Part shown: positions 16,616 to 33,198 of the stretch, piece after piece | How the letters are laid out: every line of letters starts with the position of its first letter | How positions within the stretch are numbered: the first letter of the stretch is position 1 | Origin: Solirubrobacterales bacterium | GTDB lineage: Bacteria; Actinomycetota; Thermoleophilia; Solirubrobacterales; JACPNS01 | Assembly (NCBI GenBank): GCA_016185345.1 | Contig: JACPNS010000021.1 | Location: 62,001-126,000 of the forward strand | Length of the DNA stretch: 64,000 bases | Reading direction: 5' to 3' | The notes under the pieces: model-generated | Database searches by the model: none | The model's input: the letters and a program-made list of their open reading frames with translations, nothing else | Told to the model about the DNA's origin: nothing | Translations under genes and position numbers: made by a program

Positions 16616-17431
16616 TTGTGGGGCGACGCTTTGAACTATGCGTCGAAGGGGTATGACGCTGTAAGAGAGTTTCTCGTCGAGATCGGCGAGATGGTGATCC
16701 TCGGTGGAAAAACCTTGGTCTCCGCGGCCAGGCCTCCGTACCCGTACGGTGGCGAGTTTGTCCAGCAGTTTCTCTTCGCGCTCAAACTCTGCTGGTTCCC
16801 GCTGGTCGTCTCCACGATCGCGCTCGGCTACGGAGCGCCCGGGCTGCAGGCAGCGAACATCTTTACGATCCTCGGATCGATCGACCGTCTCGGCGGATTC
16901 TTTGTGCTTGCGTCGATCCGTGAATTCGCCCCGTTCGTCACCGCAATCGTCATGGCCGGCGTCGCCGGGACGGCAATCACTGCAGACCTCGGCGCGCGCA
17001 AGATCCGTGACGAACTCGACGCTCTCGCGGTGCTGGGCGTGGACGCAGTCAAGAACCTCGTCGTCCCGCGCTTCTTTGCACTGATGATCCTCACTGGCCT
17101 GTTCGACGTCTTCGCGCTGATGCTCGGCGTTTCGGGCGGAGTGATCGCAACACTCGTCAATGGCGCTCCGCTCGGTCCGTTCTGGGCAACCTTCTTCACC
17201 AACGCGTCGGTCACAGACCTCTGGGGGTCGATAGTCAAGACCACCGTCTTCGGAGCGATCATCGCGATCGTCTGCTGTTACAAGGGAATGAATGCGAAGG
17301 GCGGCGCCGAGGGAGTCGGCCGCGCCGTCAATCAGGCGGTCGTCATCGCCTTCATCGGCGTATTTGCATTCAACATCGTCTTCACGCAGGCGCTTTTGGC
17401 CACCAATCCCGAGATCACGCAGATCAGGTAG
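16616..17431 (+). CDS. MlaE/YrbE-family ABC transporter permease, first of the Mce operon
   Basis: 271 residues from a TTG start; an in-frame stop lies just before it, and the next in-frame ATG (16691) would shorten the protein by 25 residues, so the start is uncertain. Five or six membrane segments are seen, with the family core REFAPFVTAIVMAGVAGTAITADLGARKIRDELDAL, the EQ-loop-like segment that contacts the ATPase, followed by LAVLGVDAVKNLVVPRF. It forms, with the next protein, the membrane channel of a Mce importer. Confidence 0.9.
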   Translation: MWGDALNYASKGYDAVREFLVEIGEMVILGGKTLVSAARPPYPYGGEFVQQFLFALKLCWFPLVVSTIALGYGAPGLQAANIFTILGSIDRLGGFFVLASIREFAPFVTAIVMAGVAGTAITADLGARKIRDELDALAVLGVDAVKNLVVPRFFALMILTGLFDVFALMLGVSGGVIATLVNGAPLGPFWATFFTNASVTDLWGSIVKTTVFGAIIAIVCCYKGMNAKGGAEGVGRAVNQAVVIAFIGVFAFNIVFTQALLATNPEITQIR

Positions 17432-17437
17432 ACGGCG

Positions 17438-18235
17438 ATGGTCGACGCACGCAACCGGGTTGAACAGTGGATCGAGGATTTCGGTCGCGTCGTGAAGTTC
17501 GGCTCGGAAGTTGTCGTGGACATCTTCAACGGCCGCGTCATGACCTTCTTCGGCGAGACGCTGCGCCAGGCAGGCGTGCTGATCATCGGCTCCGCGGTCG
17601 TGATCTGGACACTGATGTTCTTCGTCGGCCTGCAGTGCGGAATTGAAGGGGCGTATTCGCTTCGTGCGTTCGGCGCGCCCGCCTATGCCGGAGTCTTCAC
17701 CGCTTGGTGCGACCTGCGAGAGATCGCCCCGTACGCATTCGGCTACATGATGTGCGCCAAGGTTGGTACGGGAATCGTCGCCGAGATCGGCTCAATGCGC
17801 ATCAATGACGAAATCGACGCGCTCGAGGTCATGGGCATCGACTCCGTGCTCTTCCTTGCCTCAACGCGCCTGCTCGCCGCATGGCTCGTGCTTCCGTTTC
17901 TCTACGTCACCGGCGTCGCCGGTGCGTTCCTCGCGTCATACCTGGCGGTGGTCCAGCAGGTCGGAGATGTCTCGAGCGGTTCGTACTCGCTGATCTTCTG
18001 GCTGTTCCAGAACCCACCAGACCTCTTGTTCAGCGTCATCAAGGCGATGACGATGGCCACGTTCATCGTGATCATCGCCTGTTACTACGGCTACAACGTC
18101 ACGGGTGGCCCTGTTGGCGTGGGTACCGCGACCGCCAAGTCGATGGTTGCGAACATCGTTGTTGTCCATCTTGTGGGAATGATGGGCACCGTCTTCTTCT
18201 GGGGGGCGAACCCACGCGCTCCTATTGGAGGTTGA
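17438..18235 (+). CDS. MlaE/YrbE-family ABC transporter permease, second of the Mce operon
   Basis: 265 residues with the same fold: LREIAPYAFGYMMCAKVGTG, then IGSMRINDEIDALEVMGIDS as coupling segment, then three hydrophobic segments. It starts 6 bp after the first permease, so translation is probably coupled. The heterodimer of the two permeases would sit under the hexameric MCE proteins. About 100 bp without a gene follow before the ATPase. Confidence 0.9.
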   Translation: MVDARNRVEQWIEDFGRVVKFGSEVVVDIFNGRVMTFFGETLRQAGVLIIGSAVVIWTLMFFVGLQCGIEGAYSLRAFGAPAYAGVFTAWCDLREIAPYAFGYMMCAKVGTGIVAEIGSMRINDEIDALEVMGIDSVLFLASTRLLAAWLVLPFLYVTGVAGAFLASYLAVVQQVGDVSSGSYSLIFWLFQNPPDLLFSVIKAMTMATFIVIIACYYGYNVTGGPVGVGTATAKSMVANIVVVHLVGMMGTVFFWGANPRAPIGG

Positions 18236-18338
18236 CGGTGCCCTATCCCAAAACGCAAAATTGTGCTTGGTTTGAGAAGCGAAGCGTTCGCTTGATCATC
18301 GGGTTTGAATGCGCGATCATTGAAAGGTGGCGTCAGCC

Positions 18339-19379
18339 ATGACGGAGGACAATTTCGGGCCAGGTCAGGATGCGGATCGGGATGATCGGGAGGCCCGCAG
18401 CGAGGATGCTGTGACGGAAGCTCAGAACTATGGGGACGGCGATCGATTTGTCGACCCGCAAACAGGCGAATCTTTTCCGACGGCGCTGCCGCCGGAGCGG
18501 CGACCCGTCGAACCGACCGTCCACCTGGACGAGTTCGGCAACCGCATTCCTCCGAATGCGCCCGGCTATGAGCACGCCGGACCCTACGACTTTCACTCGC
18601 AGACGGTTCGCGATCACGGCGCCCAGCGCAGCGCGATCCAGTTCGTCGACGTGCACAAGGCTTTTGGTCGGAACAAGGTCCTCAACGGCCTGAACCTCGA
18701 CATTCCAGAAGACCAGATCTCGATGATCCTCGGACCGTCAGGTACGGGTAAGTCGGTCTGCATCAAGCACATGGTCGGATTGCTCTACCCCGACCAGGGC
18801 GACGTCCTCGTGCACGGCGAATCAGTTCCCGCAATGGCAGACGACCGGCTCTTTGAGGTGCGCAAGAAATTCGGCGTGCTCTTCCAGGACGGCGCGCTCT
18901 TCGGATCGATGAACCTCTTCGACAACGTGGCCTTCCCGCTGCGTCAACACACCGACAAGTCCGAGGCGGACGTGACGGAGATCGTCAGCCGTCGCCTCCA
19001 GGAGGTCGGACTGGGCAACGACGGCGACAAGATGCCGAACGAGCTCTCTGGCGGAATGCGCAAGCGCGCTGGATTTGCCCGCGCGCTGGTGCTCGACCCA
19101 GACATCGTGCTCTTCGACGAGCCGGACTCAGGCCTCGACCCGGTCCGCACGGCGCTGCTGTGTGACCTGATCCAGGAGATCCACAACGAAAACGGCGGCG
19201 CGTACGTGGTCATCACCCACGACATTCTTTCTGCGCGCCGAGTAGCCGAACACATCGCGCTGCTCTGGAAGGGCCGCATCGTCGACGCCGGCCCGGCTCA
19301 GGAGTTGTTCAACTCCGAGAACCCGTTCGTAAAACAGTTCTTGACGGGCGACGCCGCTGGTCCCTTGGGCATGGAGTAG
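18339..19379 (+). CDS. Mce-associated ABC transporter ATPase (MceG/Mkl type) with acidic N-terminal extension
   Basis: 346 residues. The ATPase core begins near residue 95 (IQFVDVHKAFGRNKVLNGL) and shows Walker A GPSGTGKS, signature LSGGMRKRAGFARAL, Walker B IVLFDEPDSGLD and the switch histidine VITHD. The first 95 residues are acidic, rich in Asp/Glu/Pro and without predicted structure, which is longer than usual for MlaF/Mkl. The ATG at 18339 is preceded by AAAGG; a GTG 12 bp upstream is the alternative. In mycobacteria the Mce ATPase is encoded away from mce loci. Here it lies between the permeases and the MCE genes. Confidence 0.92.
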   Translation: MTEDNFGPGQDADRDDREARSEDAVTEAQNYGDGDRFVDPQTGESFPTALPPERRPVEPTVHLDEFGNRIPPNAPGYEHAGPYDFHSQTVRDHGAQRSAIQFVDVHKAFGRNKVLNGLNLDIPEDQISMILGPSGTGKSVCIKHMVGLLYPDQGDVLVHGESVPAMADDRLFEVRKKFGVLFQDGALFGSMNLFDNVAFPLRQHTDKSEADVTEIVSRRLQEVGLGNDGDKMPNELSGGMRKRAGFARALVLDPDIVLFDEPDSGLDPVRTALLCDLIQEIHNENGGAYVVITHDILSARRVAEHIALLWKGRIVDAGPAQELFNSENPFVKQFLTGDAAGPLGME

Positions 19380-19438
19380 ACCGCAGCAAAGTGAACCGAA
19401 AATCTTGTCAGTCATCGCGGGCCAGTGCGGCCTTCACC

Positions 19439-19460
19439 AGCGCCCCCTCGGAGGGGCGCT
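19439..19460 (+). terminator. GC-rich hairpin between the ATPase and the first MCE gene
   Basis: AGCGCCCC-CTCGGA-GGGGCGCT, a perfect 8-bp stem with 6-nt loop, lies 60 bp after the ATPase stop. No T-run follows, so it is more likely to lower readthrough, or to protect the upstream mRNA, than to be a full terminator. Confidence 0.45.
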
Positions 19461-19512
19461 TGGCGCGTCTACGGGCGGTCAGTCCTGGCCGGCCTCAGGC
19501 GGGCGATTGCGC

Positions 19513-20880
19513 GTGGTAACCAAGCAGCAAAGGCAGATCGCTATAGCGGCACTGGTGGCCGCACTGCTGATCGTCATCTGGCTGGTCATGCAGAGCGGTG
19601 GCTACGTCGTGAACGCACGCTTTGAGACCGGCGGGCAGCTCGTCAAGGGTGCAAATGTGACCGTTGGCGGCAAGGCGATCGGCAAGGTCGAATCGATCAC
19701 GCTGACCGAAGACAATCAGGCCAATGTGAAGATGAAGATCAACGACGACTCGCTTGATCCGCTGCACCGCGGAACTACGGCGACGATCCGTCAGTTCTCA
19801 CTGTCTGGTGTTGCAAACCGATTTGTGGCGCTTGCGCCCGGGCCGAACAACGCCGCGAAGATTCCGAACGAAGGCATCATCGCGACCGACGACACCGAGT
19901 CGCCGGTGGACCTTGACCAGCTGCTGAACAGCTTTACGCCGAAGGTCACCCGGGGCCTCCAGGGATTCATCAAGGGCAGCGCGACGCAGTACAAGGATGA
20001 TCCTTCAACTCCGCTGAATGAGACGACCTACGGAAACCAGGCGCTGCGGTACATCGCTCCGTTCTTTGATGCTGGGGCGCGGCTTGCGGCCTCGGTCGCC
20101 AAAGATGACGAAACACTGGCGTCATTCCTGGTTGTTTCGGACCGTGCGACGACCACGCTTGCTGCTCAAAAGGAGCAGATCAAAGCGATGTTCACGAACT
20201 TGACGAGGTTTACGACGGCCGTTTCCGCGGAGTCGGAAGAGCTTGACAAAGCACTGGCTGTTCTGCCGGAGACGCTGCAACAGGGCACTGTCGCCTTCAG
20301 GCAACTGCGACCAACGTTCGACGCCCTGGAGAACCTGTCCGACAAGTCCGATCCGATCGGTAAGAACGGGGGGGACGGACTCGCGGAATTATTCATCAAA
20401 TTGAAGCCGCTGATTGACAACTCGGAGCCGACCCTCGGCTACCTGCGCGAGCTAGTCAATCAGGGCGGCAAAAACAACGACCTCACCGACCTGTTCGCCG
20501 GCCAACCGTCGCTTACAAAGAAGGCCAAGACCGCGTTCCCCAACTCCACGAGCGCGATGCAGACCGGGCAGATCGTCCTGCAGTTCCTGCGTCCGTACAC
20601 CCCGGAGCTGACCAGCTGGTTCTCGCGCTTTGGACAGATTGCCGCCAACTATGACGCGAACGGCCACTACGTGCGTGTCGCCACGCAATCGGGTGCATTC
20701 AAGCTGAATGGAAGTGGTCAGCTGACCCCGAGTGGAAACAATTCGCTCGATCAGTACGGCAAGACGGGCACTTCTCGATGCCCAGGAACTGGCGCGCAGA
20801 ACGCCGGAGATGGCTCCAACCCGTTTACGGCTGGCGGAACTCTCGACTGTGACCCCTCGATTCAGCTGCCTGGCCCCTAG
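19513..20880 (+). CDS. MCE-family protein 1
   Basis: 455 residues from the GTG at 19513. The frame is open back to 19405, but the family start is the basic-hydrophobic anchor QRQIAIAALVAALLIVIWLV. The MCE domain follows: FETGGQLVKGANVTVGGKAIGKVESITL, then TTATIRQFSLSGVANRFVAL. The C-terminal half is largely helical, as expected for the needle or tunnel part of Mce proteins. Six such proteins in one operon are expected to form a heterohexamer that carries hydrophobic substrates (lipids or sterols) across the periplasm-like space. Confidence 0.88.
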   Translation: MVTKQQRQIAIAALVAALLIVIWLVMQSGGYVVNARFETGGQLVKGANVTVGGKAIGKVESITLTEDNQANVKMKINDDSLDPLHRGTTATIRQFSLSGVANRFVALAPGPNNAAKIPNEGIIATDDTESPVDLDQLLNSFTPKVTRGLQGFIKGSATQYKDDPSTPLNETTYGNQALRYIAPFFDAGARLAASVAKDDETLASFLVVSDRATTTLAAQKEQIKAMFTNLTRFTTAVSAESEELDKALAVLPETLQQGTVAFRQLRPTFDALENLSDKSDPIGKNGGDGLAELFIKLKPLIDNSEPTLGYLRELVNQGGKNNDLTDLFAGQPSLTKKAKTAFPNSTSAMQTGQIVLQFLRPYTPELTSWFSRFGQIAANYDANGHYVRVATQSGAFKLNGSGQLTPSGNNSLDQYGKTGTSRCPGTGAQNAGDGSNPFTAGGTLDCDPSIQLPGP

Positions 20881-20883
20881 GCG

Positions 20884-22278
20884 ATGAGCATGCGAAACCA
20901 GACCTCCGAAATCGTCACAGCAGCGTCGCCGCGCCGTATTTCGGTGCGGGGTCGCCGCGTCATCGCTCTGGCAATCGTCGTCGCCGCCGCAGCGGTCGTC
21001 GTTGTCTCTTCAGTGGGCGCGGGTAACGGCGACGGATACCGGATCCGCGCGGTCTTTGTCAACGCATCGGGGATCACCAAGGGCGCTGATGTGCGCGTGG
21101 CCGGTGCAAACGTCGGCTCGATCACCGGAATCTACGTCGGCAGGAACAACCTCGCGTCCGTGATCCTCGATGTCACGGACCCGGCGTTCCAGCCCTTCTA
21201 TAGCGACGCCAAGTGCCGAATCAGACTCCAGTCACTCATCGGCGAAAAGTTCGTCGACTGCGATCCGGGTATTCCGACGAAACCACCACTCCCAGCGGAC
21301 CCATCGGATGCCGAGCGGGTAATCCTCGGGCCGAGCAAAACCAGTTCTCCGGTCGATCCAGATGAGCTACTCGACGCCATGCGTGAACCGCAACGCGAAC
21401 GTTTCCGGGTGATCATCAACGAGCTCGGCATCACATTGACCGGTCGCGGTCAGGACCTTCAGGACATTCTCAATCGCTTTGACCCAACGTTCTTGAACGT
21501 CAACAAGATTCTCAAAATCCTCGCCGAGGAGAACAAGAATCTCGTTCGCCTTGCTGAGGACGGCGATCGGTCGCTGAAGTCACTGGCCGAGAATCGCGAC
21601 CGTATCGTCGGTCTTTTCAAGAACGCGGACAAAGCTTCCAGGGCGACCAACGCCAAACAGCAGCAGCTTGCCGAGACGCTCGCTCGACTACCTGCGTTCC
21701 TTGACGAACTTGAGAAAACCGCTCCAGTACTGGAAAACTTTGCGAATCAAGCTGCGCCTGTCGCGGCGTCGACCCGCGCTGCGTCCGCTGATCTTTCCCA
21801 ATTCGTTACCGGAACGAAAAAGTTCGTCGATTCCGCCAACCCGGCCCTGAAGCGATTCGGCGTGACAGCAGATGTCTTCCGCGCGCAGATCCCGGCCTTG
21901 CAACCGGTGGCAGAGACGTTGAACACGATTGGTGACAACCGGTCGTCGGTCACGAACTTGAAAAAGCTGCTCAAGAGCTTCGGCGACGATCAGAATGGCT
22001 ACGCGAACCTGGCGTCAATGGCGATTGGGCTCGCGGGAGCAGGCAACGGAAAAAACTCTTTCGGGCACTTCCTGCGTTCGGCCGCGGTGCTTCAGGGGAG
22101 TTGCCTGAACTACGTCCAAACGAGCAACTCGGGATGCATGGCGAATTTCTCCGAGGACCGCTCGGCAACCAACAGCGAACCCTCCGAGAAGCTGACAGCG
22201 CCGCCGACGAAGTCGAGCGCCTCAAGCCTTGCTTCCGATACGGCGGCACTCGACTATTTGCTCGGGGGTGACAACTAG
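20884..22278 (+). CDS. MCE-family protein 2
   Basis: 464 residues. Anchor segment VIALAIVVAAAAVVVVSSVG, then the MCE domain VFVNASGITKGADVRVAGAN with VGSITGIYV and CRIRLQSLIGEKFVDCDPG. A long helical region follows (LTGRGQDLQDILNRFDP to LARLPAFLDELEKTAPV), typical of mycobacterial Mce proteins. It starts 3 bp after the previous stop; an alternative ATG lies two codons on. Its TAG stop shares its G with the GTG of the next gene. Confidence 0.88.
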   Translation: MSMRNQTSEIVTAASPRRISVRGRRVIALAIVVAAAAVVVVSSVGAGNGDGYRIRAVFVNASGITKGADVRVAGANVGSITGIYVGRNNLASVILDVTDPAFQPFYSDAKCRIRLQSLIGEKFVDCDPGIPTKPPLPADPSDAERVILGPSKTSSPVDPDELLDAMREPQRERFRVIINELGITLTGRGQDLQDILNRFDPTFLNVNKILKILAEENKNLVRLAEDGDRSLKSLAENRDRIVGLFKNADKASRATNAKQQQLAETLARLPAFLDELEKTAPVLENFANQAAPVAASTRAASADLSQFVTGTKKFVDSANPALKRFGVTADVFRAQIPALQPVAETLNTIGDNRSSVTNLKKLLKSFGDDQNGYANLASMAIGLAGAGNGKNSFGHFLRSAAVLQGSCLNYVQTSNSGCMANFSEDRSATNSEPSEKLTAPPTKSSASSLASDTAALDYLLGGDN

Positions 22279-23753
22279 TGCGCCGCCAGGGAGTCGCTGA
22301 CAACCCAGTTCTCGTTGGTGCAGGAGCGATCCTCGTGATGCTCGTGATGATCCTGCTCAGCTACAACGCCACGACCGGCCTTCCGTTCGTCCCGACGTAC
22401 AACATCACCGCTGAAATCCCCAACGGGGCGGCCTTGGTTAAGGGCAATGAAGTCCGGATCGGAGGCGCGCGCGTCGGCATCGTCCGATCAATTACCCCGA
22501 TTGAAGAGAACGGTAAGTACCGAGCCCAGATCGCCCTGAAGCTGGACAAGAATATCGGTCCGATTCCCGTCAATTCTGAAGTCGAGGTCCGCCCAAAGTC
22601 TACGATCGGGCTCAAGTATGTTGAATTGACGCTGGGCGACTCCTCGCAAACGATCGCCAACGGCGGAGGACTGCCACTTGCACAATCGACCGTGGCGACT
22701 GAATTCGAGGACCTGCTCAATACTTTCGACAAGCGGGTCCGCGAGGGTAACAAGCGGTCGCTTCAGGAGTTTGGCAACGCGTTTGCCGGCCGCGGAGCGG
22801 ACCTGAACACTGCGTTCGGCGAGCTTGGCCCGCTTTTTCAGAACCTTGAACCAGTCGCCCGGACAATTTCCGACCCGGCTGCCCGCTTGGGCGACTTCAT
22901 AGCCGCGCTTGCACAGGCGGCACGGGACACCGCTGTCACCGGGGACCAAGCAGGTGAGGTGTTTGCGAACGCAGACGTCACTTTTGCCGCATTCGCGGCC
23001 GCATCCGACGGCATCCAGCAGAGCCTTCAGGAATCACCATCGACTCTCGCTGTGCTCACGGAGACTTTTCCTGCCGAGCGCCAGTACTTCCGCCAGCTCA
23101 CTGGCCTGGTCGAGAAGTTCCAACCCGGGGCCCCGTACCTTCCTGCAGTATCGGCCAACCTCGCGGATATCACGCGAAATGGACCTGTGGCGTTTGACAA
23201 GCTCTACAAAACCACGCCGGCATTCAACACGACGTTCACGAAGCTCGGCGCATTTGCAGGAGACCAGCAGGTACGTCTCGGGCTCAACGGCTTGAAGAAC
23301 TTCGTTGTGACGATCAATGCACCGCTGAAGTACATCACTCCGGCGCAGACCACGTGCAACTATTTCGGCCTGTTTGCGCGCAATATCGCGTCGACGGTCT
23401 CATCGCGTGACAACGGAGTTGGCTGGCTGCGATTTGGAATCATTGCTGGCTGGCCTGGTCCTTCGCCGCGAACAAACAGTGAGGTTGGGCCTGCCAGCGG
23501 AATCGCCAACTTCGCTCAACCGAGCCTGGCCAACCAGGACGCGACGGACTTCCTCCAGTCGAATCCATACCCGACCACGGGCCAGAACAACGTCTGTGGT
23601 GCCGGAAACGAAGTCACCAAGGGTAAGAACGTCAACACTGGTGTAGGCACTCTGCCCAAGAGCCCCACGCTCCAGCAGCCAGGCAAAATCAAGAGCGGAA
23701 AGACGACCGAGGACACACAAGCGATCGGCTCTGACCAGGTGCGAACGAAATGA
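22278..23753 (+). CDS. MCE-family protein 3
   Basis: 491 residues, GTG start overlapping the previous TAG (TAGTG). Hydrophobic anchor LVGAGAILVMLVMILLSYNA, MCE domain EIPNGAALVKGNEVRIGGAR, VEVRPKSTIGLKYVELTLG, then a helical domain and a Pro/Asn-rich C-terminal tail (NPYPTTGQNNVCGAGNEV). It lies in the centre of the set of six and overlaps the next gene by 4 bp. Confidence 0.88.
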   Translation: MRRQGVADNPVLVGAGAILVMLVMILLSYNATTGLPFVPTYNITAEIPNGAALVKGNEVRIGGARVGIVRSITPIEENGKYRAQIALKLDKNIGPIPVNSEVEVRPKSTIGLKYVELTLGDSSQTIANGGGLPLAQSTVATEFEDLLNTFDKRVREGNKRSLQEFGNAFAGRGADLNTAFGELGPLFQNLEPVARTISDPAARLGDFIAALAQAARDTAVTGDQAGEVFANADVTFAAFAAASDGIQQSLQESPSTLAVLTETFPAERQYFRQLTGLVEKFQPGAPYLPAVSANLADITRNGPVAFDKLYKTTPAFNTTFTKLGAFAGDQQVRLGLNGLKNFVVTINAPLKYITPAQTTCNYFGLFARNIASTVSSRDNGVGWLRFGIIAGWPGPSPRTNSEVGPASGIANFAQPSLANQDATDFLQSNPYPTTGQNNVCGAGNEVTKGKNVNTGVGTLPKSPTLQQPGKIKSGKTTEDTQAIGSDQVRTK

Positions 23754-25174
23754 CCTTGCACCACGGAGCAAACCAAGGAATGTCGCTGCGTAAGGCCGGC
23801 CTCGTGGGGATCGTCACCATTTCGGTACTCGTGTACTTCGCGTTCTCGAAAAACATCCCGTTCACCAATGGCTACCAGGTAACTGCCTACTTCACGAATG
23901 CGGCGAACATTCAGCCCAAGGCGCAAGTGCGCATCGCTGGCGTGAAGGTCGGCACGGTTGCGAAGGTCGAGCGCGGAGACGGTTCGACAACGAAGGTCGT
24001 CATGAGTCTGGACGAAAAGGCCCTGCCGATAAGACGGGACGCCGCCGCCCGAATCCGGTTCCGCATCTTCCTTGAGGGAAACCCGTTCGTCGACCTCTCC
24101 CCAGGTACTCCAGGTTCGCCAGAGATCAAATCCGGCGGTTCGATTCCGGTTGCCCAGACCGCTGGACCTGTGCAGTTGGACCAGGTGCTGAGCGCGGTGA
24201 ACAGCGACGCTCGCAAAGGTCTTGAGAACGTTTTCACCGAAATCGGCACGGCGCTCAACACCAAGGGCACCGCAGAAGAAAACAAGACGCAGGACAACGA
24301 AGTCAAGGATTTGACAGGGGCGCAGGCCCTGAACAGGGCATTCCGCTATGGCCCTGAAGGATTCAAGGGCGGTGCCCGAATCCTCGACGCACTGATCGGC
24401 TACAACGACAATGATCAGCTGACGATTCTCCGCGGATTCCGGGACTTCAACACCGCGATCAATGATCGCGAGACGCAGATTGTGCCCCTGATCGCAGACT
24501 TCGCAACCACGATGGGCGCTTTTGCCGACGATGAGCAGGCACTGCGCCAGGCGACTGCGCAGTTTTCGCGGCTCGCCTACAGCTCACTCCCGACTCTGGT
24601 TCAGCTCAACCGGCTGCTGCCCCAGCTCACGCGCTGGTCGAACACGATCGCACCGAATCTCGACGAGATCCCGGCCACGGTTCGAGCCGCCTACCCGTGG
24701 ATCGAGCAGACCAACCTCTTGTTCGGCAGAGACGAGCTGGGTGGCACGGCTCCACTGGCTCAATCGACTGTCGAGAACTTCGCCAAGACCCAAGCCGCGT
24801 CGCAAAGTCTGCTGCCGCAGCTGGACAACATCTCGAAATGCTGGAACAAGAACTGGTTCCCAACCCTCAACTCGGTTGTGCCCGATGGATCGAACACCTC
24901 CGGCAAGGAGAATTACAAGGAATTCTGGTACTCGCTGGTCGGCTTCAACAGTTCGGCACAGAACTTCAATGCCAACGGCCCATACTTGAGACTTGGAGCC
25001 GGGTCGGACTCGGAGGTGAAGACGCCCTCAAAAACTTTGACCGGCAATGCAGCGCTCCCGGAAACCGGCGTGAATCCGTTGCTGCCAGCCAAGAATCCGG
25101 TGGTCCAGACTTCGACACCGTGTTTCAAGAACACGAGACCAAACCTTGCGCCGACAAAGGGGAGCACCCCGTAG
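23750..25174 (+). CDS. MCE-family protein 4
   Basis: 474 residues. Anchor LRKAGLVGIVTISVLVYFAF; MCE domain YFTNAANIQPKAQVRIAGVK with VGTVAKVERG and AARIRFRIFLEGNPFVDLSPG. The helical region ends in a long polar tail with several prolines. ATG overlaps the previous stop (ATGA), and its TAG overlaps the next GTG. Confidence 0.88.
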   Translation: MTLHHGANQGMSLRKAGLVGIVTISVLVYFAFSKNIPFTNGYQVTAYFTNAANIQPKAQVRIAGVKVGTVAKVERGDGSTTKVVMSLDEKALPIRRDAAARIRFRIFLEGNPFVDLSPGTPGSPEIKSGGSIPVAQTAGPVQLDQVLSAVNSDARKGLENVFTEIGTALNTKGTAEENKTQDNEVKDLTGAQALNRAFRYGPEGFKGGARILDALIGYNDNDQLTILRGFRDFNTAINDRETQIVPLIADFATTMGAFADDEQALRQATAQFSRLAYSSLPTLVQLNRLLPQLTRWSNTIAPNLDEIPATVRAAYPWIEQTNLLFGRDELGGTAPLAQSTVENFAKTQAASQSLLPQLDNISKCWNKNWFPTLNSVVPDGSNTSGKENYKEFWYSLVGFNSSAQNFNANGPYLRLGAGSDSEVKTPSKTLTGNAALPETGVNPLLPAKNPVVQTSTPCFKNTRPNLAPTKGSTP

Positions 25175-26493
25175 TGCATGGTCTACGCAAATCCCTTAAG
25201 CGTTACGGCGTGCACCTTGCTGCGATCGTAATTCTCGTCATTGCGTCGCTCGGAATTGCGGGGTACATACTGTCGAACCAACGCCTGTACCTACCGGCCT
25301 GGGTGCCGGTGGTCGGCACCGATTTCTACGTTGTGAACGCCCAGTTCACTAGTGCTCAGGCCGTCACACCCGGACAGGGTCAGACGGTCAACATAGCCGG
25401 GGTGCCCGTTGGCGAGATCGGAAACGTCACGCTGAAGAACGGTTCCGCAAACGTCGAGCTCAAGATACGACGCGCGCACTCGCCGATCTACAAAAACGCG
25501 ACGATGCTCCTGCGCCCGAAGACGCCGCTCTCTGACATGTACATCGACATGAAGCCCGGAAGCCCGAGCGCAGGCAAGATCGAGGAGGGCGGGACCGTTC
25601 CCCAGGCGAACACCAAGCCAACCGTGAACTTTGATGAGTTCCTCTCGGTTCTCGACGCAGACACTCGGGACTACCTCCAAAATCTCCTGGCCGCCGCGGG
25701 GCAGGGTCTTGACGGTCAAGCGAGCAACCTCCGACAGGGATTGAAGCGTTTCCCGACCACCGGCAAGTACGGGACTCGGATTGTCAAGCAACTTCAGACC
25801 CGCCGCAAGAACATCAAACGGGCGATTACAAATCTTGCCCTCCTGGCCAAGGCGCTGGGTGACAACTCAGACATCTTTGCCTCGTTGATCGACTCATCGA
25901 GCGTGACTTTCCGAACTTGGGCGAGCCAGCAAGAATCAATCCGACAGATCATTCAAAAGGCCCCCGCCGCGTTCGGTGGGACTGCAGACGCTGTGGAAGC
26001 GGCGCAGCCAGTCGTCGAAGACACAGCGGTGGCGTTCAGAAATCTTCAGCCGCTCGCAAAGGATTTGGGCATCTCGCTCAAGAGTCTGCGTCCCTTTTTC
26101 CGCGATCAGACGAAGGTCACTCGCGAGCAGTTCCGACCGCTGGCGCGTGAGTCCAAACCGCTGCTGGAACGGCTCAACCCAGCGGCTTCGAATCTCGCCA
26201 AGTTGACACCGGATGCGACAGCGGCGACCAAGTCCTTCAACAATCTTCTGAATATTGTGGGATACAACCCCAAGGGATCTGAAGAGGGTTACCTCTACTG
26301 GCTCTCTTGGTTCAACCACATCTCGAGCTCGAGTTACAACCGACAGGATGCCAATGGCATTCTCGGTGCGGGGGCGATCGTCGGAAGTGACTGTGACTTC
26401 GCCGCGACGAATGCTCCGCTCAGAGGTGGAAATGCGATGCTTCGACTCGTGGTTGGTCTTGCCGATCTTCCGGTCGGAAAGGTGTGCCGGTAG
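25174..26493 (+). CDS. MCE-family protein 5
   Basis: 439 residues from the GTG at 25174, chosen because it overlaps the previous TAG like its neighbours and gives the family anchor (HLAAIVILVIASLGIAGYIL). The frame is open much further upstream, but that lies inside the previous gene. MCE domain: AQFTSAQAVTPGQGQTVNIA, VPVGEIGNVTLKNG and MLLRPKTPLSDMYIDMKPG. I see no lipobox, although in mycobacterial sets one member is a lipoprotein. Confidence 0.87.
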   Translation: MHGLRKSLKRYGVHLAAIVILVIASLGIAGYILSNQRLYLPAWVPVVGTDFYVVNAQFTSAQAVTPGQGQTVNIAGVPVGEIGNVTLKNGSANVELKIRRAHSPIYKNATMLLRPKTPLSDMYIDMKPGSPSAGKIEEGGTVPQANTKPTVNFDEFLSVLDADTRDYLQNLLAAAGQGLDGQASNLRQGLKRFPTTGKYGTRIVKQLQTRRKNIKRAITNLALLAKALGDNSDIFASLIDSSSVTFRTWASQQESIRQIIQKAPAAFGGTADAVEAAQPVVEDTAVAFRNLQPLAKDLGISLKSLRPFFRDQTKVTREQFRPLARESKPLLERLNPAASNLAKLTPDATAATKSFNNLLNIVGYNPKGSEEGYLYWLSWFNHISSSSYNRQDANGILGAGAIVGSDCDFAATNAPLRGGNAMLRLVVGLADLPVGKVCR

Positions 26494-28079
26494 TGATCAA
26501 GCGCGCACCAAGTCCGGCTCAACTGATCTCGATGATCGCGTTCGCTTTCTCATGCTTTGCGCTGATTCTTTTCCTCTGGGTTTCGTTTGGGGGGCCGGTG
26601 CCGCTGAAGCCCCAGGGCTATCGGGTGAACGTCACCTTCAGCGAGGCTGTTCAGCTCGCGACCGAGGCCGACGTGCGGATTTCGGGCGTTCCGGTCGGAA
26701 AAGTAAAGAAGGTCAAGCCAGAGCAGGGTCGTACTGAGGCGACGCTTGAGATCCAGCCACGCTACGCCCCGCTTCCCAACGACGTGAAAGCGATCCTTCG
26801 AAGCAAGACTCTTCTGGGCGAGACTTTTGTCGAACTGTCGCCCGGCACCGATGGCACGTCGACGATTCCCGAGGGCGGTTCGATTTCGGCCGCCCAGGTG
26901 TCGAATCAGGTTCAACTGGACGAGGTGATTCGAACATTTGATCCGGTCACTCGTCGCGCTTTCGGCAACTGGCTCATCGGGCAGTCCGACGCAGTCAAGG
27001 GCAGCGGCGATCAGTTGAATCAGGCGTTTGGTGTGCTTCCGATGTTCTTCACGGACACCAACAGTCTGATGAGCACTTTGCGCCGTCAGGACAAGGCTTT
27101 GTCGCGATTGTTCGCGAACACCGCGGACATTTTCGAGGCAATCGACAGTCGCCCGGGACAGCTGACCCAGCTGATTCTGACATCCAATCGGCTCCTGCGC
27201 GTAACGGCAAGCCGGAGTCAACAACTTACCGACACGTTCAACAGATTCCCGGAGTTTCTCCGCCAAATTCGCGAGACGACCAAGCAGTTCCAGGACTTCT
27301 CCGACGGCACTCAAGAGCTGATCGCCAATTCCGGTGAATTTGCCGACGCCTCGTCGCCGATCATGAAGAAGTCGGTCAGAGTTACAAACGACGCCCGTCT
27401 ACTCGTCAACAGCCTCGAGCCGATGCTGGACAAGGCCGATTCGGGACTGCCGGCGACCAATCAGTTCCTGGACCTCGCCAGACCAACGATCGCTCAGCTC
27501 GACCCATTCTTGGCCAACCTGAATCCGGTGCTTCAGTTCGTCGGCGAGTATAAGCGCGAGTTGACTGCGTTTGCGGCGAACGATGCCGCCGCCTCGCAAG
27601 CACAGTTCACCGCTGCGACTCCGAACGTCGGAAGCTCAAACTGGGGTCACTATCTCCGCACTTTCATCACACTTTCCCCGGACAATCTGGCGTACTACCC
27701 GAAGAAGACGACGAAAACGCGATCAAATGCGTATCCGGTCCCAGGTTGGTACGACCGACTGGCACAGGGGCTCCAGGTCTTTGACTCGGGCGCGTGCGGC
27801 ACAATTCCGGTCCCTGCGCTCGACCCGGACATAACGCTTTATCCCGACAAATGGGCGCGACTGCTCACGGATATCAATCAAATCGCCTATGCCGGCGACT
27901 ACACAGCTAACCCGACTGCGCCGGTAGGTGCGTCTTCGGCGACGGCGAACCTCGCCCAAAGCCCGAGCAACGCCGCGCAGCTCCCCGCTCCGAACTGCGA
28001 CCAGCAAACCGCCATGTCGTTCCAGGGCCAATCGCTCCAGTTCCCGCAGGTAAACGAATCCTCGAACGCGAATCCCTAG
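26493..28079 (+). CDS. MCE-family protein 6
   Basis: 528 residues from the GTG at 26493 (TAGTG overlap with the previous stop); a GTG three codons earlier is possible. Anchor ISMIAFAFSCFALILFLWVS, MCE domain TFSEAVQLATEADVRISGVP, VGKVKKVKPEQG and AILRSKTLLGETFVELSPGT. A long coiled/helical domain and a Gln/Asn/Ser-rich tail follow. It is the last of the six; the RND protein begins 37 bp later. Confidence 0.88.
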   Translation: MIKRAPSPAQLISMIAFAFSCFALILFLWVSFGGPVPLKPQGYRVNVTFSEAVQLATEADVRISGVPVGKVKKVKPEQGRTEATLEIQPRYAPLPNDVKAILRSKTLLGETFVELSPGTDGTSTIPEGGSISAAQVSNQVQLDEVIRTFDPVTRRAFGNWLIGQSDAVKGSGDQLNQAFGVLPMFFTDTNSLMSTLRRQDKALSRLFANTADIFEAIDSRPGQLTQLILTSNRLLRVTASRSQQLTDTFNRFPEFLRQIRETTKQFQDFSDGTQELIANSGEFADASSPIMKKSVRVTNDARLLVNSLEPMLDKADSGLPATNQFLDLARPTIAQLDPFLANLNPVLQFVGEYKRELTAFAANDAAASQAQFTAATPNVGSSNWGHYLRTFITLSPDNLAYYPKKTTKTRSNAYPVPGWYDRLAQGLQVFDSGACGTIPVPALDPDITLYPDKWARLLTDINQIAYAGDYTANPTAPVGASSATANLAQSPSNAAQLPAPNCDQQTAMSFQGQSLQFPQVNESSNANP

Positions 28080-28116: not shown

Positions 28117-30660
28117 GTGAACCTTCCAGACTTTTACCGTCGCGCCACCGAGCGAGCTGCGCGCAGCTCTTTGAAGAAGCCGCCGATCGTGATTGCGATC
28201 GCCGGTCTGCTTGCGGTTGGCGCGGCATTGCTCGCGCTGAATCTCACGCCTGACACCGGCGTCGAGTCGATCACCGGCACAAAATCCGAGACCTACAAAT
28301 CCACCCAGGTCTGGGCCAAGAACTTCGGTGGCGATCCAATCGTCGTTGTTGCCAAGGGCAAAGTCGCAGAGCTGGCCCTGGGCCCGGATCTTGGCGTGAT
28401 GCTCGGCCTCGAGGGTTGTCTCTCGGGAAAGATCCCGACGAAGGCGCTCGCCGCCCAACCCAAGGTCTGCAAAGAGATCGCGAAGCTCAAACCGGCGGTC
28501 GCGGTCTATGGGCCCGGCACGTTCGTGAACACTGCCGTGATCTCAATTCAAGAGACGATCACAAAACTTTCCAAGCAGGCTCTCAAGCAGGGCAAAGAGG
28601 CCGGCAAGGCCGCGGCTGAAGTCGCGCGCCGTTCAGGCAAGGGCAAGCAGGCGCAGCAGAAGGCCCGCAAGGCAGCTGACGATGCAACTCGTCTTCAGCT
28701 TCTCACGTACGCGCTCAAGCTTGGAACGCAGTACAACCTTGGCATTGGCAGCCAGCCGAGCCTGAACAACCCCGAGTTCATCGCCCGCCTGATCTTTGAT
28801 CCGATCAACGGCTCGGACGAGCCAAAAGGCAAATGGTCCTACATCTTCCCGAGCAAGAATGCAGCGATCATCCAGGTTCGCCTTCGCCCGGGCCTCTCGT
28901 CTGCGCAGCGCGCAGAAGCCGTCGACCTGGTCAAGCGCGCGACGGCCGACAACAAGTACGCCCTCGCAAAGGGTCAGTACTTCGTGACCGGCGCTCCGGT
29001 GGTGCTGGCCGAGGTCGAGGATTCGATCCAGCGCGCGATCGTCATCCTGCTGATCGCCGCGCTGATCGTCATGGCGATCGCACTGCTCGTCGTCTTCCCG
29101 GCGGAGCTTCGCCTGCTTCCGTTGATGCTCGCTCTGATGGCAGCGGCTGGCACCTACGGTTTGCTCGCGCTCACTGGATCATCGATCGGCGTAGGGGCGG
29201 TGGCGGTTTTGCCGGTCCTTGTTGGCCTTGCCGTTGACTACGCGATTCAGTTCCACGCGCGGGCCGATCGGGCCATGCAATCTGGCGCTAGTCCGCCGGA
29301 GGCGGTCATGCAGGCTGCGACCAGCGGAGGCCCGCCTGTGCTCGCGGCAGCGACCGCGACGATCGCCGCGCTCCTGGCCCTGATTCTCAGCCCAATCCCG
29401 CTGATCCGCGGCTTCGGACTTCTACTCGTGATCGGCGTCGCGCTGGCGATTGTCATCGTGCTCACCGCTGGCTTCGCAACTCTCGGTTGGGCCGGCGGCG
29501 CGTCAAAGCGCACCAAGCGCCGTCAGCCAGCCGAAACCGTCGCGGGGTGGATGCGGCTCAGAAAACTCTTCAACCGCACAGCCGCGAACCCGCGCAAGAC
29601 CGTCCAAGTCGCGCTTGCCGTTGCGCTGGTCGGCTGGGTCGCTGGCCTTCTCTCGCCGGTGACAACCGACATCCAGCAGCTCGTTCCCGGAAACCTCGGA
29701 GCCGTAGAAGACGCCAGAGAATTCCAGAAGCTTTCCGGCACGAGCGGCACGGTGGACGTACTTGTCCAGTCGAAGGATGTGACCGATCCGAAGGCCGTCA
29801 AGTGGATGATCGATTTCCAGAAGGCAGCGCTCGTCAAGGCCGGCTACAAGGGCGAGGCTCCGACCTGCGCCAAGTCAGAGCTCTGCCCGGCGCTCTCGCT
29901 CGCCGGTCTCTTCGAGGGGCAGAAGCTGACTCAGGCCAACGTACGCCGGACACTCACCCAGGTCGGCGACTTCTCCCGCGGGGCAGTCACGCCCGACCGC
30001 AAGATGGCGACGATCGCATTCGGCCTGCGCGAGGAAGCGCTGAACGATCAGAAGAAATCGATCGACCAGTTGCGCGACCGCATCGAGGACAAACCACCGC
30101 CAGCGGGAACCACGGCAACTGTCGTCGGCCTGAACGCGCAGGCGGCCGACGCGAGCGGTGCGCTCAGCAATCCCTTCAGGCGTCTGTTGATGGCGCTCGT
30201 CGCGTTGGGCCTCCTTCTGCTGGTCGTGCGAGGCGTCTCGGCCACGTGGCGCAAGTCCTACCCGCCAGTGCTTTCAGTTGCCGCGGCAGGCGGAATCTCC
30301 GCGCTCCTGCTTTTTATCCTTCGCATCGATCTGAACCCGATGTCCGCCGCGCTCGGCGTCTTTATCATCGCTATTGCGGGCGAATTCACGTTGCTGATCC
30401 ATATGCAGTACCTGCGTGAACGCAAGGACTCGGCGCAGATCGAAGTGATCGAAGCTTTCCGCCGGGCCTACAAGACGATCGGTCCAGCAGTCTTCGCCTC
30501 CGGCGTGACCGCCATCGCCGGCTTCGCCGCCCTGGCAGTCAGCGACATCAACATGCTGCGCGGCTTTGCGATCGTCGCAGTGGTCGACCTCGCGGTTGCG
30601 CTGCTCAGCACCGTCGTGCTGCTGCCCGCGATCACGGCCTGGCTCGAAGAAGAGAAATGA
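28117..30660 (+). CDS. MMPL/RND-superfamily transporter at the end of the Mce operon
   Basis: 847 residues from GTG. Two-fold repeat of an RND half: TM1 (about 25-45), a large extracytoplasmic domain, then a block of TM helices with LPVLVGLAVDYAIQFHARADRAM; the second half repeats this (LLFILRIDLNPMSAALGVFIIAIAGEFTLLIH). The layout resembles MmpL/HpnN-type lipid transporters, which use the proton gradient. Position behind the MCE genes suggests that it hands lipid to, or takes it from, the Mce complex. Gly/Lys-rich stretch KQGKEAGKAAAEVARRSGKG lies in the first outer domain. Its stop overlaps the next gene by 4 bp (ATGA). Confidence 0.88.
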   Translation: MNLPDFYRRATERAARSSLKKPPIVIAIAGLLAVGAALLALNLTPDTGVESITGTKSETYKSTQVWAKNFGGDPIVVVAKGKVAELALGPDLGVMLGLEGCLSGKIPTKALAAQPKVCKEIAKLKPAVAVYGPGTFVNTAVISIQETITKLSKQALKQGKEAGKAAAEVARRSGKGKQAQQKARKAADDATRLQLLTYALKLGTQYNLGIGSQPSLNNPEFIARLIFDPINGSDEPKGKWSYIFPSKNAAIIQVRLRPGLSSAQRAEAVDLVKRATADNKYALAKGQYFVTGAPVVLAEVEDSIQRAIVILLIAALIVMAIALLVVFPAELRLLPLMLALMAAAGTYGLLALTGSSIGVGAVAVLPVLVGLAVDYAIQFHARADRAMQSGASPPEAVMQAATSGGPPVLAAATATIAALLALILSPIPLIRGFGLLLVIGVALAIVIVLTAGFATLGWAGGASKRTKRRQPAETVAGWMRLRKLFNRTAANPRKTVQVALAVALVGWVAGLLSPVTTDIQQLVPGNLGAVEDAREFQKLSGTSGTVDVLVQSKDVTDPKAVKWMIDFQKAALVKAGYKGEAPTCAKSELCPALSLAGLFEGQKLTQANVRRTLTQVGDFSRGAVTPDRKMATIAFGLREEALNDQKKSIDQLRDRIEDKPPPAGTTATVVGLNAQAADASGALSNPFRRLLMALVALGLLLLVVRGVSATWRKSYPPVLSVAAAGGISALLLFILRIDLNPMSAALGVFIIAIAGEFTLLIHMQYLRERKDSAQIEVIEAFRRAYKTIGPAVFASGVTAIAGFAALAVSDINMLRGFAIVAVVDLAVALLSTVVLLPAITAWLEEEK

Positions 30661-31259
30661 CCACTTTCTGGAAGGCTCTCCTCGCGCTGCTGACGGTAGG
30701 AGCCGCCATCTCGCTCGTGGTGCTCTTCATGGGAAATCGGCCGGTCGGCTCGGAGAATCTGATCGGCAAGCCGCTTCCAGACTTCTCCGCGCCGCTCGCA
30801 TCCGGGACAGAGACCGCTGACGCCAACATCTACACCGCGGCGCAGGCCGAGCAAGCGAAGTCAACCGCTGCCTGCGACGTCGAGTTTCCCGACGCCTTCA
30901 ACTCCTGCCGCGACTTGACCGGCAGCTCGATCATCTCCTTTTGGAACACTGGCAAACAGGAATGCGTGCAAGAGATCTCGACTCTCGATGATTTCGCGGC
31001 GGCGAACTCCGACGTGAGCGTGGTCGCCGTCGCGTTTGACCAGACCGAGGAAGTCGTCCGTAAGTTCGTCGGCGACCAGGACTGGAAGATCCCCGTGGCG
31101 ATCGACCGCGATGGCGCCGCCGCCGCGCTCTACTCAGTCGCGGGCTGCCCAAGTACGTATTTTGCGCGCGATGGCGAGATCACCGGGGTTAAGCTCGGCG
31201 TACTCACCGCCGCGCAACTCGAAGAGGGACTCGTCGGGTCCGGCGGCTCGACCAACTAA
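30657..31259 (+). CDS. Membrane-anchored thioredoxin-fold (TlpA/AhpC-like) protein lacking the CXXC nucleophile
   Basis: 200 residues: TM anchor (5-25), then a TlpA-like fold. GKPLPDFSAP is the usual entry strand; IISFWNTGKQEC stands where WASWCxxC is expected, so the first Cys is Lys100 and only the second (Cys103) remains. The cis-proline loop is GCPSTYF (Cys164-Pro165). Two further cysteines, Cys73 and Cys84, lie in a family-unusual insertion. It therefore cannot act as a normal CXXC reductase. Translationally coupled to the RND gene and abutting the following small membrane gene. Confidence 0.75.
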   Translation: MTTFWKALLALLTVGAAISLVVLFMGNRPVGSENLIGKPLPDFSAPLASGTETADANIYTAAQAEQAKSTAACDVEFPDAFNSCRDLTGSSIISFWNTGKQECVQEISTLDDFAAANSDVSVVAVAFDQTEEVVRKFVGDQDWKIPVAIDRDGAAAALYSVAGCPSTYFARDGEITGVKLGVLTAAQLEEGLVGSGGSTN

Positions 31260-31748
31260 ATGGGCAAGCGATCACGACAGAAGGCAGCGCCTCGGCAGCG
31301 AAATGCAGATCCGCAGTCGCGCAGGGCGCGTCTGCGCGAGCGCGCTGATGTCGCCAGCCGGGCCGCCGAGAAGCAGATAAAGCAGCGCCCGGCAGCGCCC
31401 TGGGATCCGTTTCCGCTGACCGAGCTTGCGGTGTTCTCGGGGATTGTGCTGCTTGTCGTCGGCCTGTTCGTCCCGGGCGACACCGGGAGGGGCCTGGTTG
31501 TCGCCGGCGTCGTGCTGGCATCTATCGGGGGCTTGGAGACCGCGATAAGAGAGCACTTTGGTGGCTTCCGGTCGCATGCAGGGCTGCTGTCGGGGATCGG
31601 AGCGCTTGCGACCCTGATTGCCACCACGTCACTGTTGGGGATATCTCCGGCGATCGGTGCAGGTACTGCGATCGCCGTGTTCGGACTTTTGTTCCCAACG
31701 CTGCGATCATCGTTTATCCGCAGGTCCGGTGGACGCGGCGTAATCTAA
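31260..31748 (+). CDS. Small membrane protein, unknown function
   Basis: 162 residues starting directly after the TlpA-like stop, so it belongs to the same operon. The first 45 residues are strongly basic (GKRSRQKAAPRQRNADPQSR). Then come four hydrophobic segments (LAVFSGIVLLVVGLFV, GLVVAGVVLASIGGL, and two after residue 105). No family recognised. As last gene of the Mce unit it may be an accessory part of the transporter. Confidence 0.65.
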   Translation: MGKRSRQKAAPRQRNADPQSRRARLRERADVASRAAEKQIKQRPAAPWDPFPLTELAVFSGIVLLVVGLFVPGDTGRGLVVAGVVLASIGGLETAIREHFGGFRSHAGLLSGIGALATLIATTSLLGISPAIGAGTAIAVFGLLFPTLRSSFIRRSGGRGVI

Positions 31749-31829: not shown

Positions 31830-32234
31830 ATGGCCGATGGGCAAGTGATAGGCGGATACCCGCCAGAGGTGAAATCCGGGCGCATGCGTGCCCGGGGCAT
31901 CGGCATGTTCATCATCGGAATGACAATGTGGGTCGGCGTTCCAGGCGGCTGGCTCTACATCGGCTCGATGGTCAAGGCCGAGAGCGATTCGCTTGGCCTC
32001 GCGCTAGCCGTCATGGGGATTGGCGCGATCGTCATGGTCGTCGGCCTGGTCAAGGCGCTCGGGACTCTCAATCGTAATTGGATCGAGGAGTTCGTGGCGC
32101 TCAACGATCGCCGGCCGCAGCGCACTCCGCTCGAGCCGATCCTCGTGATCAGCGCGTTCTTGGCTCTTGCGGTCTTCGGGCTCTGGTTCGCGTTCTTTGC
32201 CGGCGCCGGCGGACCTGTCGCCGCACCGCAGTAG
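31830..32234 (+). CDS. Small membrane protein, unknown function
   Basis: 134 residues with three hydrophobic segments (GIGMFIIGMTMWVGVPGGWLY, LALAVMGIGAIVMVVGLVKA, PILVISAFLALAVFGLWFAFF). Start ATG at 31830 follows AGGGAAG about 10 bp upstream. An 80-bp gap separates it from the previous gene, so it may have its own promoter. No family recognised. Confidence 0.6.
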   Translation: MADGQVIGGYPPEVKSGRMRARGIGMFIIGMTMWVGVPGGWLYIGSMVKAESDSLGLALAVMGIGAIVMVVGLVKALGTLNRNWIEEFVALNDRRPQRTPLEPILVISAFLALAVFGLWFAFFAGAGGPVAAPQ

Positions 32235-32240
32235 CGGCCT

Positions 32241-32756
32241 CTACTCGACGACGATCCCGGGACCGTCGGTGGCGATTTCAAGGATGTTGCCGTCCGGGTC
32301 GCGGAAGTAGATCGAGCTGTAGTACGTGCGGTTGATCGGCTCGGTCGCCTGCACGCCGTGTTCGTTCAAGTGCTTGTGCCAGGCGTGGAGCTCATCGAGT
32401 GAACCCGCGCGAAGGGCGAAGTGGTGGACCACGCCGACGCCGATCGCGCCCTGGTCCATGTTCGAATACTCCATGAACGTGACGATCGAGCCCGGCGAGG
32501 CCTCGCTGTCGCCGAAGTAGAAGTGGCGCGCGCCTGGATCGTCCTCGTTGGTCGTGCGCTTGATCAGCGTCATGCCGAGCAGGTCGCGGTAGAAGCTGAC
32601 CGTGCGATCGAGGCTCGAGCAGATCGCGGTGACGTGGTGAATACCACCGAGCTTGAGCTGCAGCGGCTCAGCGGCCTCCGAGGTCGTTTCACCTGGTGCA
32701 GGGGACACCTCTGGGGCCTTGACTGCGTCGGTCGTCTCTGTGGGGTCTCCGGTCAC
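32241..32756 (-). CDS. VOC-superfamily protein (ring-cleavage dioxygenase/glyoxalase-like)
   Basis: 171 residues from the GTG at 32756. The frame continues upstream, but those residues lie antisense to the mihF end and look non-coding. A 30-residue Pro/Thr/Glu leader precedes the domain: LGGIHHVTAICSSLDRTVSF, FYRDLLGMTLIKRTTNEDDP, VVHHFALRAGSLDELHAWHK, IYFRDPDGNILEIATDGPG. His in IHHVTA and VVHHFAL plus Glu in LEIATD give a complete 2-His-1-carboxylate metal site, so it is probably an active metalloenzyme; the substrate is unknown. Confidence 0.75.
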   Translation of the reverse strand: MTGDPTETTDAVKAPEVSPAPGETTSEAAEPLQLKLGGIHHVTAICSSLDRTVSFYRDLLGMTLIKRTTNEDDPGARHFYFGDSEASPGSIVTFMEYSNMDQGAIGVGVVHHFALRAGSLDELHAWHKHLNEHGVQATEPINRTYYSSIYFRDPDGNILEIATDGPGIVVE

Positions 32757-32817
32757 GAGGGAGAGCCTAACCGGGCGGGCGCCGCGTGGCGCCCGCCCGG
32801 GGGCTACAGATCGGTTC

Positions 32818-33198
32818 TCAGGCAGCGGCGCGGTAGACGACGGATGCTGCGAGGTCAGGTGCTGGGCGGGCAGTGGTGAGCACTTCCGCCATCGCCGAGC
32901 GCTGACGCTCGGTGAGGGACCGGATCGTCTTGGTCTCGTTGAGACCGATCGAGTCCATGAACTTGGCGCAACGGGTCGTGCCCCATCGCTTCTGGCTTGT
33001 AAGGAGTTCGTAGAGCTCCATGCCGGCGATTTCATCCGACGGGTCCAGCAAGACATCTGCAACCGCGACGTCGCCCTTGGCGATGCGACGTTTGAGTTCC
33101 GCGCGGGCCAGGCGAATGCGGTTGGCCTGCTCCAGCGCACGCATGTTCTGGCCGCCGGCGGGGGTGTTGTTGGTAGGGACTGAGCTTGATTTGTTCAC
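32818..33198 (-). CDS. mihF: Actinobacterial integration host factor (mIHF-like)
   Basis: 126 residues, GTG start with a very strong ribosome site GGGAGGT upstream. The core ANRIRLARAELKRRIAKGDV, LLTSQKRWGTTRCAKFM (helix-two-turn-helix region) and LTERQRSAMAEVLTT line up with mycobacterial mIHF, an essential nucleoid protein that bends DNA. The N-terminal 20 residues (Ser/Asn/Thr-rich) are longer than in the mycobacterial protein. Unlike in many Actinobacteria, gmk (guanylate kinase) is not seen next to it; a VOC gene lies downstream and a long non-coding stretch upstream. Confidence 0.87.
   Translation of the reverse strand: MNKSSSVPTNNTPAGGQNMRALEQANRIRLARAELKRRIAKGDVAVADVLLDPSDEIAGMELYELLTSQKRWGTTRCAKFMDSIGLNETKTIRSLTERQRSAMAEVLTTARPAPDLAASVVYRAAA

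Follow-up and report, generated by a model that had tools for sequence, protein, structure and literature searches.

A thioredoxin-fold protein family lacking the first active-site cysteine accompanies an RND transporter across the Solirubrobacterales

The window analyzed here is a stretch of 64,000 nucleotides from a Solirubrobacterales bacterium (assembly GCA_016185345.1, contig JACPNS010000021.1), in which a Mce operon also encodes an RND transporter and, overlapping its gene, a small thioredoxin-fold protein. The latter belongs to an order-wide family that has a ResA-like predicted fold, has lost the first Cys of the CxxC active site, carries four invariant Cys residues and is encoded almost constantly next to the RND gene. 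Our favored reading, to which we assign a probability of about 0.5, is that the protein serves the transporter outside the cytoplasm as a non-catalytic accessory subunit (or assembly factor), and that it descends from a ResA/TlpA-type ancestor whose catalytic center would have become a disulfide lock. The family is real and order-wide, and we found no description of it in the open-licence literature, where none of the papers among the matches listed connects Mce or RND/MMPL in Solirubrobacterales with a thioredoxin-like protein. The two genes concerned, from a source genome of 2.43 Mb in 22 contigs (completeness 96.7%), are:

28117..30660, + strand: RND transporter of the MMPL/HAE3 type, the partner gene (Pfam MMPL, 7.6e-47; best NCBIfam match HAE3, under its cut-off)
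30657..31259, + strand: presumably membrane-anchored thioredoxin-fold protein without the first CxxC Cys (200 residues; Cys73, Cys84, Cys103, Cys164; Pro165 at the cis-Pro position)

Invariant cysteines and a lost nucleophile

The open reading frame at 30657-31259 (+) begins with an ATG that overlaps the RND gene's stop codon in the sequence ATGA. At the CxxC site its 200-residue product reads SFWNTGKQECVQEI, which includes Lys100 and Cys103, and the translation also contains Cys73, Cys84 and the dipeptide Cys164-Pro165, all as an initial annotation of the window had described them. A search with this single protein (E <= 1e-5) found matches in 128 of 151 genomes of the order, some of them weak matches to ordinary paralogues, and relatives in all five genomes of the taxonomic family, the source genome included. 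From the best matches (E <= 1e-9), 120 loci, one per genome, were fetched, leaving out the window's own locus, G033 and G122. Each of the 120 contains a match to the family that scores 119 bits or more, and together with the window they form the main alignment of 121 sequences. Genomes G065 and G132 also have family members, with the four Cys kept; G033, where the match is short and lies at a contig edge, and G122 were counted as gene-bearing without reading of the sequence. With these four and the window genome, the gene is present in 125 of the 151 genomes and absent from 26.

Cys73, Cys84, Cys103, Cys164 and Pro165 are identical in all 121 sequences, which is the result of the orthologue alignment that the initial annotation had proposed as a check. 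Position 100 is Gly in 71 of them, Lys in 6 and Cys in none, and no sequence has a Cys between residues 95 and 103, where the loop before Cys103 is 6 to 10 residues long. A normal CXXC in orthologues had been named as grounds for giving up the claim of a missing nucleophile; it occurs in 0 of 121, and the same count rules out both a chance loss at codon 100 and a sequencing error there. The claim that Lys stands in for the nucleophilic Cys needs narrowing: loss of the Cys is family-wide, whereas Lys is mostly a trait of the window's genus, to which five of the six carriers belong, and a special role for Lys100 is thereby ruled out. Selenocysteine is likewise ruled out in the order family, since the in-frame TGA flagged in the member from G065 is the natural stop of that gene.

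A diversity set of 71 sequences was used for entropy, for invariant columns and for structure prediction. Its only invariant columns are C73, C84, C103, D150, C164 and P165. The cis-Pro loop (161-165) has a mean entropy of 1.16 bits, the loop 97-102 one of 2.68 bits and the linker one of 2.69 bits, and C103 is flanked on both sides by variable residues (3.0-3.1 bits). A working active site is usually a conserved loop, the opposite of the degenerate pattern at 97-102. The other most conserved segments are residues 143-153 (1.34 bits), whose pattern FPVxxDxDG is also common to ordinary relatives outside the family, and an N-terminal patch, 40-58 (1.47 bits). Across the domain region (residues 36-194 of the window protein) the number of Cys residues is never odd, being four in 78, six in 42 and eight in 1 of the 121 sequences, and extra Cys between N57 and C73 are paired in 39 sequences and single in none; these counts are less independent than they appear, because the sequences share ancestry.

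Relatives outside the order

Profiles of the family were run against genome samples of the class (149 genomes) and the phylum (296 genomes). The class sample gave 26 matches at E <= 8.8e-32, the next lying at 6.5e-21, and the phylum sample 7 matches at E <= 5e-56, the next lying at 3.0e-23; all of the 26 and the 7 fall within the order, so that neither sample yielded a family member outside Solirubrobacterales. Among loci outside the order, 20 of the better class matches and 23 from the phylum search, 38 distinct loci in all, were read. All 38 keep CxxC, or UxxC if TGA is read as selenocysteine, and none has a Cys before the cis-Pro. Because relatives outside the order keep CxxC and lack this Cys, the order family has lost the nucleophile and gained the Cys before the cis-Pro. 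As far as sampled, this double change is the mark of the Solirubrobacterales family.

Nine of the 20 class loci read (L094-L102, from genomes of class family f8) encode ResA/TlpA-like proteins in which an in-frame TGA takes the place of the codon for the first active-site Cys, as in FWASWUPTC; these proteins are possible selenocysteine thiol oxidoreductases. Loci L074, L083, L086 and L093 sit in records titled Bifidobacterium breve, labels that look wrong.

Predicted fold

AlphaFold2, supplied with the 71-sequence alignment, returned a model with a mean predicted local distance difference test score of 93.4 and a predicted template modelling score of 0.83, consisting of a single long helix (residues 2-24) and a thioredoxin-type domain. 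From the model, the helix is presumed to be a transmembrane anchor. Among the top matches of the model in Foldseek and VIA are ResA-type oxidoreductases, StoA and SdbA, and VIA superimposes it on ResA with a Z of 18.1 across 130 residues (root-mean-square deviation 1.7). The sequence profile agrees with the structure search (ResA match, 8e-14). In the profile alignment to ResA, Cys103 falls on the second active-site Cys, Cys164 on the residue before the loop Pro (LPTT) and Pro165 on that Pro, and it is from this sequence alignment that Pro165 is assigned as the cis-Pro. The protein thus has in common with ResA/StoA/TlpA the fold, the N-terminal anchor, the Pro at the cis-Pro position and the second active-site Cys. 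Unlike them, it lacks the nucleophilic first Cys of CxxC in 121 of 121 sequences and has an invariant Cys before the cis-Pro together with the extra Cys73 and Cys84. It scores 52.1 bits with the curated NCBIfam model of ResA, below the cut-off of 170 bits.

Genomic context

The loci had been found by searching with the thioredoxin-fold protein alone, and an RND neighbor was scored with a profile built from the window RND, on the same strand and within 1.5 kb upstream. Such a match occurs in 115 of the 120 loci, and in 103 of the 105 that have at least 1.5 kb of upstream sequence; in the two exceptions, L057 and L155, a Mce gene lies directly upstream of the thioredoxin-fold gene. The gene is therefore tied to the transporter, as the initial annotation had concluded from the translational overlap, by both the ATGA junction and this adjacency. 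That annotation had spoken of a partner of Mce/MMPL systems, of which the RND half stands. Mce genes lie within 7 kb upstream in 39 of the 120 loci (38 of the 87 with 5 kb of room), which weakens Mce as the main partner and leaves RND much more the partner.

The remaining features of the operon are:

16616..17431, + strand: MlaE/YrbE permease 1 of the Mce operon (PF02405, 3.5e-53)
17438..18235, + strand: MlaE/YrbE permease 2 (PF02405, 8.3e-56)
18327..19379, + strand: ABC ATPase of the Mce (Mla-type) transporter (PF00005, 7.4e-27)
19405..28079, + strand: six Mce (MlaD-domain) genes (PF02470, tested on three of them; the genome has six MlaD matches)
19405-20880, 20884-22278 and 22278-23753, + strand: Mce genes 1-3, within 19405..28079
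23750-25174, about 25174-26493 and 26484-28079, + strand: Mce genes 4-6, within 19405..28079
31260..31748, + strand: DUFc, small predicted membrane protein, the conserved downstream neighbor (no Pfam match above cut-off)
31830..32234, + strand: DUFd, small predicted membrane protein, encoded next after DUFc within the genus (no more than 4 kb downstream in 14 of the 120 order loci)

The window operon is thus composed of two MlaE permeases, an ATPase, six Mce proteins, the RND transporter, the thioredoxin-fold protein and two small membrane proteins, and the order of the last five Mce genes is kept in the sister genome G003. DUFc occurs within 2.5 kb downstream in 102 of the 120 loci (96 of the 110 with room). 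Within the same distance downstream of the thioredoxin-fold gene, 82 of the 120 loci have a gene for a B3/4 domain (PF03483; for example, L052:9816-10463 and L049:9915-10556), a domain that we take to be usually part of Phe-tRNA synthetase beta. GeneB (for example, L049:10569-11120), with a C-terminal stretch such as EPGCKHWHVRPRWGLLGYLMNWWRVRISSGCPL and no Pfam match, is present in 74 of the 120 loci. In many loci the B3/4-domain gene and GeneB intervene before DUFc. A glyoxalase-family gene (PF00903, 3.5e-24; window 32241-33140, - strand) adjoins the operon, and 35 of the 120 loci have a glyoxalase gene on the locus strand no more than 4 kb downstream.

A putative disulfide-locked accessory of the RND transporter

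In the favored reading, the N-terminal helix would anchor the protein in the membrane with its domain outside. Two disulfides, Cys73-Cys84 and Cys103-Cys164, would form, the second replacing the redox center; this is suggested because invariant, even-numbered Cys residues stand beside a degenerate catalytic loop. By stapling the cis-Pro loop to the former active-site helix, the Cys103-Cys164 bond would make the domain a rigid module for binding. The porter loops of the RND transporter may be where the conserved N-terminal patch (LPxFAAPL...GDAN) docks, and a dedicated binding partner would fit both this patch and the near-fixed RND neighbor. Such an accessory could stabilize or gate the transporter and, where RND and Mce share an operon, could couple RND to Mce lipid traffic. 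Accessory proteins of RND/MMPL transporters are a functional class and not a sequence family; an encoding beside the transporter across a clade, as found here, suggests membership, with RND binding by the thioredoxin-fold protein being putative.

By analogy, the nearest functional precedent is Rv0455c (DUF5078) beside MmpL4/MmpL5. According to the available part of its description, Rv0455c is also small and extracytoplasmic, always adjoins mmpS4-mmpL4 or mmpS5-mmpL5, is proposed to be a MmpL accessory with a role in siderophore export by MmpL4/MmpL5, and has a disulfide that is structural and essential (PMC9042941). It differs in having a novel helical fold rather than that of thioredoxin, in being periplasmic and secreted, with no anchor mentioned in that part of the text, and in belonging to another actinobacterial class (PMC9042941). 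LucB, an accessory subunit and likewise a small membrane protein, is attached to a heteromeric Mce system, mycobacterial Mce1; in the part of that report available it is membrane-helical and binds Mce1C, with no mention of thioredoxin (PMC9882608). Unlike this Mce1 subunit, the thioredoxin-fold protein follows RND rather than Mce.

Several points weigh against an accessory with a disulfide lock. All 121 sequences retain the Pro at the cis-Pro position, and in DsbA replacement of the cis-Pro abolishes turnover (PMC13269488). The even parity of the Cys residues suits a structural pair and a redox-active pair equally well, and the parity count itself loses weight through shared ancestry. Finally, four genomes (G149, G014, G116 and G098) have an RND orthologue without the gene, so that a subunit would have to be dispensable.

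A possible relocated redox site

The strongest competing explanation, a possible one that we nevertheless consider less probable, is that the protein is still a redox enzyme, in which Cys164 would replace the lost nucleophile and Cys103 would resolve, so as to make, break or shuffle disulfides in the RND porter loops (and perhaps in Mce proteins). In a more specific and slightly more doubtful version, the nucleophile would have moved to the residue before the cis-Pro to form a cross-site Cys164-Cys103 dithiol, and the protein would be the private thiol-disulfide partner of one RND type, acting on Cys pairs of its porter loops. The invariance of Cys103 and Cys164 and the retained cis-Pro favor such a site, as do the Cys residues of the partner. 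Among 100 RND sequences (99 and that of the window, all 700 residues or longer, with 15 shorter fragments left out), Cys101 is kept in 99, Cys118 in 100, and Cys584 and Cys590 in 94, the other six having lost the latter two together; presumably the first pair lies in the first, and the second pair in the second, large extracytoplasmic loop. The source genome encodes five further proteins of the RND/MMPL or SecD/F type, none of which has a Cys at these positions, and the window's six Mce proteins have two to four Cys each. The genome also encodes VKOR, which makes an oxidizing cell exterior likely, and a DsbD-type membrane protein, both of them possible electron carriers. An oxidizing exterior and a source of electrons may therefore both be available, a situation that leaves a lock and a working dithiol undecided.

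The residues around Cys103 are unconserved, however, and the thioredoxin-fold partner persists beside the six RND transporters in which one pair has been lost. PMC13269488 describes the cis-Pro loop as a general lock for thiol exchange; the consensus that it gives for DsbA enzymes is X-[GAST]-[VT]-P, in which the residue before the cis-Pro is usually Val or Thr and not Cys. On the aligned sequences, the invariant Cys before the cis-Pro departs from this rule.

The 26 genomes that lack the gene bear on the same question. In 18 of them no RND was found at E <= 1e-40. Three (G140, G120 and G066) have only a distant RND, at 30-33% identity, and in five the RND orthologue is 39-42% identical (G149, G116, G098, G014 and G088), of which that in G014 is in two pieces and that in G088 lies on a contig that ends too early for its neighbor to be judged. 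The distant RND of G140 lacks both Cys pairs where the gene is also absent, as a redox partnership would predict. In contrast, G149 (L283), G116 (L284), G098 (L285) and G014 (L287) keep the RND Cys motifs with no thioredoxin-fold gene adjacent, the RND gene of G149 running directly into the B3/4-domain gene, and the distant RND of G120, beside Mce, has four Cys at matching motifs without the gene. The idea that the RND Cys pairs strictly need the thioredoxin-fold protein is ruled out by the first four of these genomes, which argues against an obligatory redox role. The initial annotation had left the choice between an alternative redox pair and a non-redox role: both of its candidate pairs, Cys103/Cys164 and Cys73/Cys84, prove conserved, and the evidence leans toward the non-redox role while leaving the matter undecided.

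Other explanations

It is improbable that the gene is an unrelated passenger, placed beside RND by inheritance alone and for no functional reason. Vertical descent can produce order-wide synteny, and the B3/4-domain gene is also kept, in the 82 of 120 loci noted above. Yet the RND adjacency persists at 22-35% identity to the window protein and where the remaining locus differs. The presence of the gene also tracks Mce (PF02470, found in 135 of the 151 genomes), at 123 of 135 genomes with Mce versus 2 of 16 without (Fisher p 5e-11, a value that ignores phylogeny and incompleteness), and only 5 of the 26 gene-less genomes have a close RND orthologue.

That the protein is a peroxiredoxin-like thiol peroxidase, in which Cys103 would be peroxidatic and Cys164 resolving, is more improbable still. 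The Pfam matches of the protein are to AhpC-TSA (2e-8) and Redoxin (3.4e-6). It belongs to the same superfamily as the peroxiredoxins (AhpC/TSA) and shares with them a Cys at the second CxxC position, which we take to be that of the peroxidatic Cys. The peroxiredoxin motif is PxxxT/SxxC, whereas the family has no TxxC motif, position 100 being Thr in 3 and Ser in 7 of the 121 sequences. The cis-Pro position is Pro throughout, not the Arg of peroxiredoxins reported in PMC2757866. Peroxiredoxins also match the predicted model at a Z of about 15 and are outscored by ResA.

A SCO-type copper chaperone has the signature CxxxC plus a His ligand; here there is one Cys at the site and no His column above 45 of 121 (position 141). 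A SCO-like carrier of a metal or cofactor is thus equally hard to credit, even though two Cys residues facing each other across the active site, Cys103 and Cys164, could serve as ligands. PMC2757866, citing Su et al. 2007, also states that active-site thiols are prevented from binding metal where the cis-Pro is retained.

Implications

If the protein is a subunit of the transporter, as favored here, it would show a redox domain turned into a transporter part, and would offer a way to study RND/MMPL and Mce lipid transport in an actinobacterial order that has received little attention. A redox-active protein would instead bring to a very common redox fold an active site of new layout, in which one dipeptide unites nucleophile and cis-Pro. 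Both ideas can be tested directly through the invariant Cys-Pro signature, and the gene losses in G149, G116, G098 and G014 provide useful natural controls.

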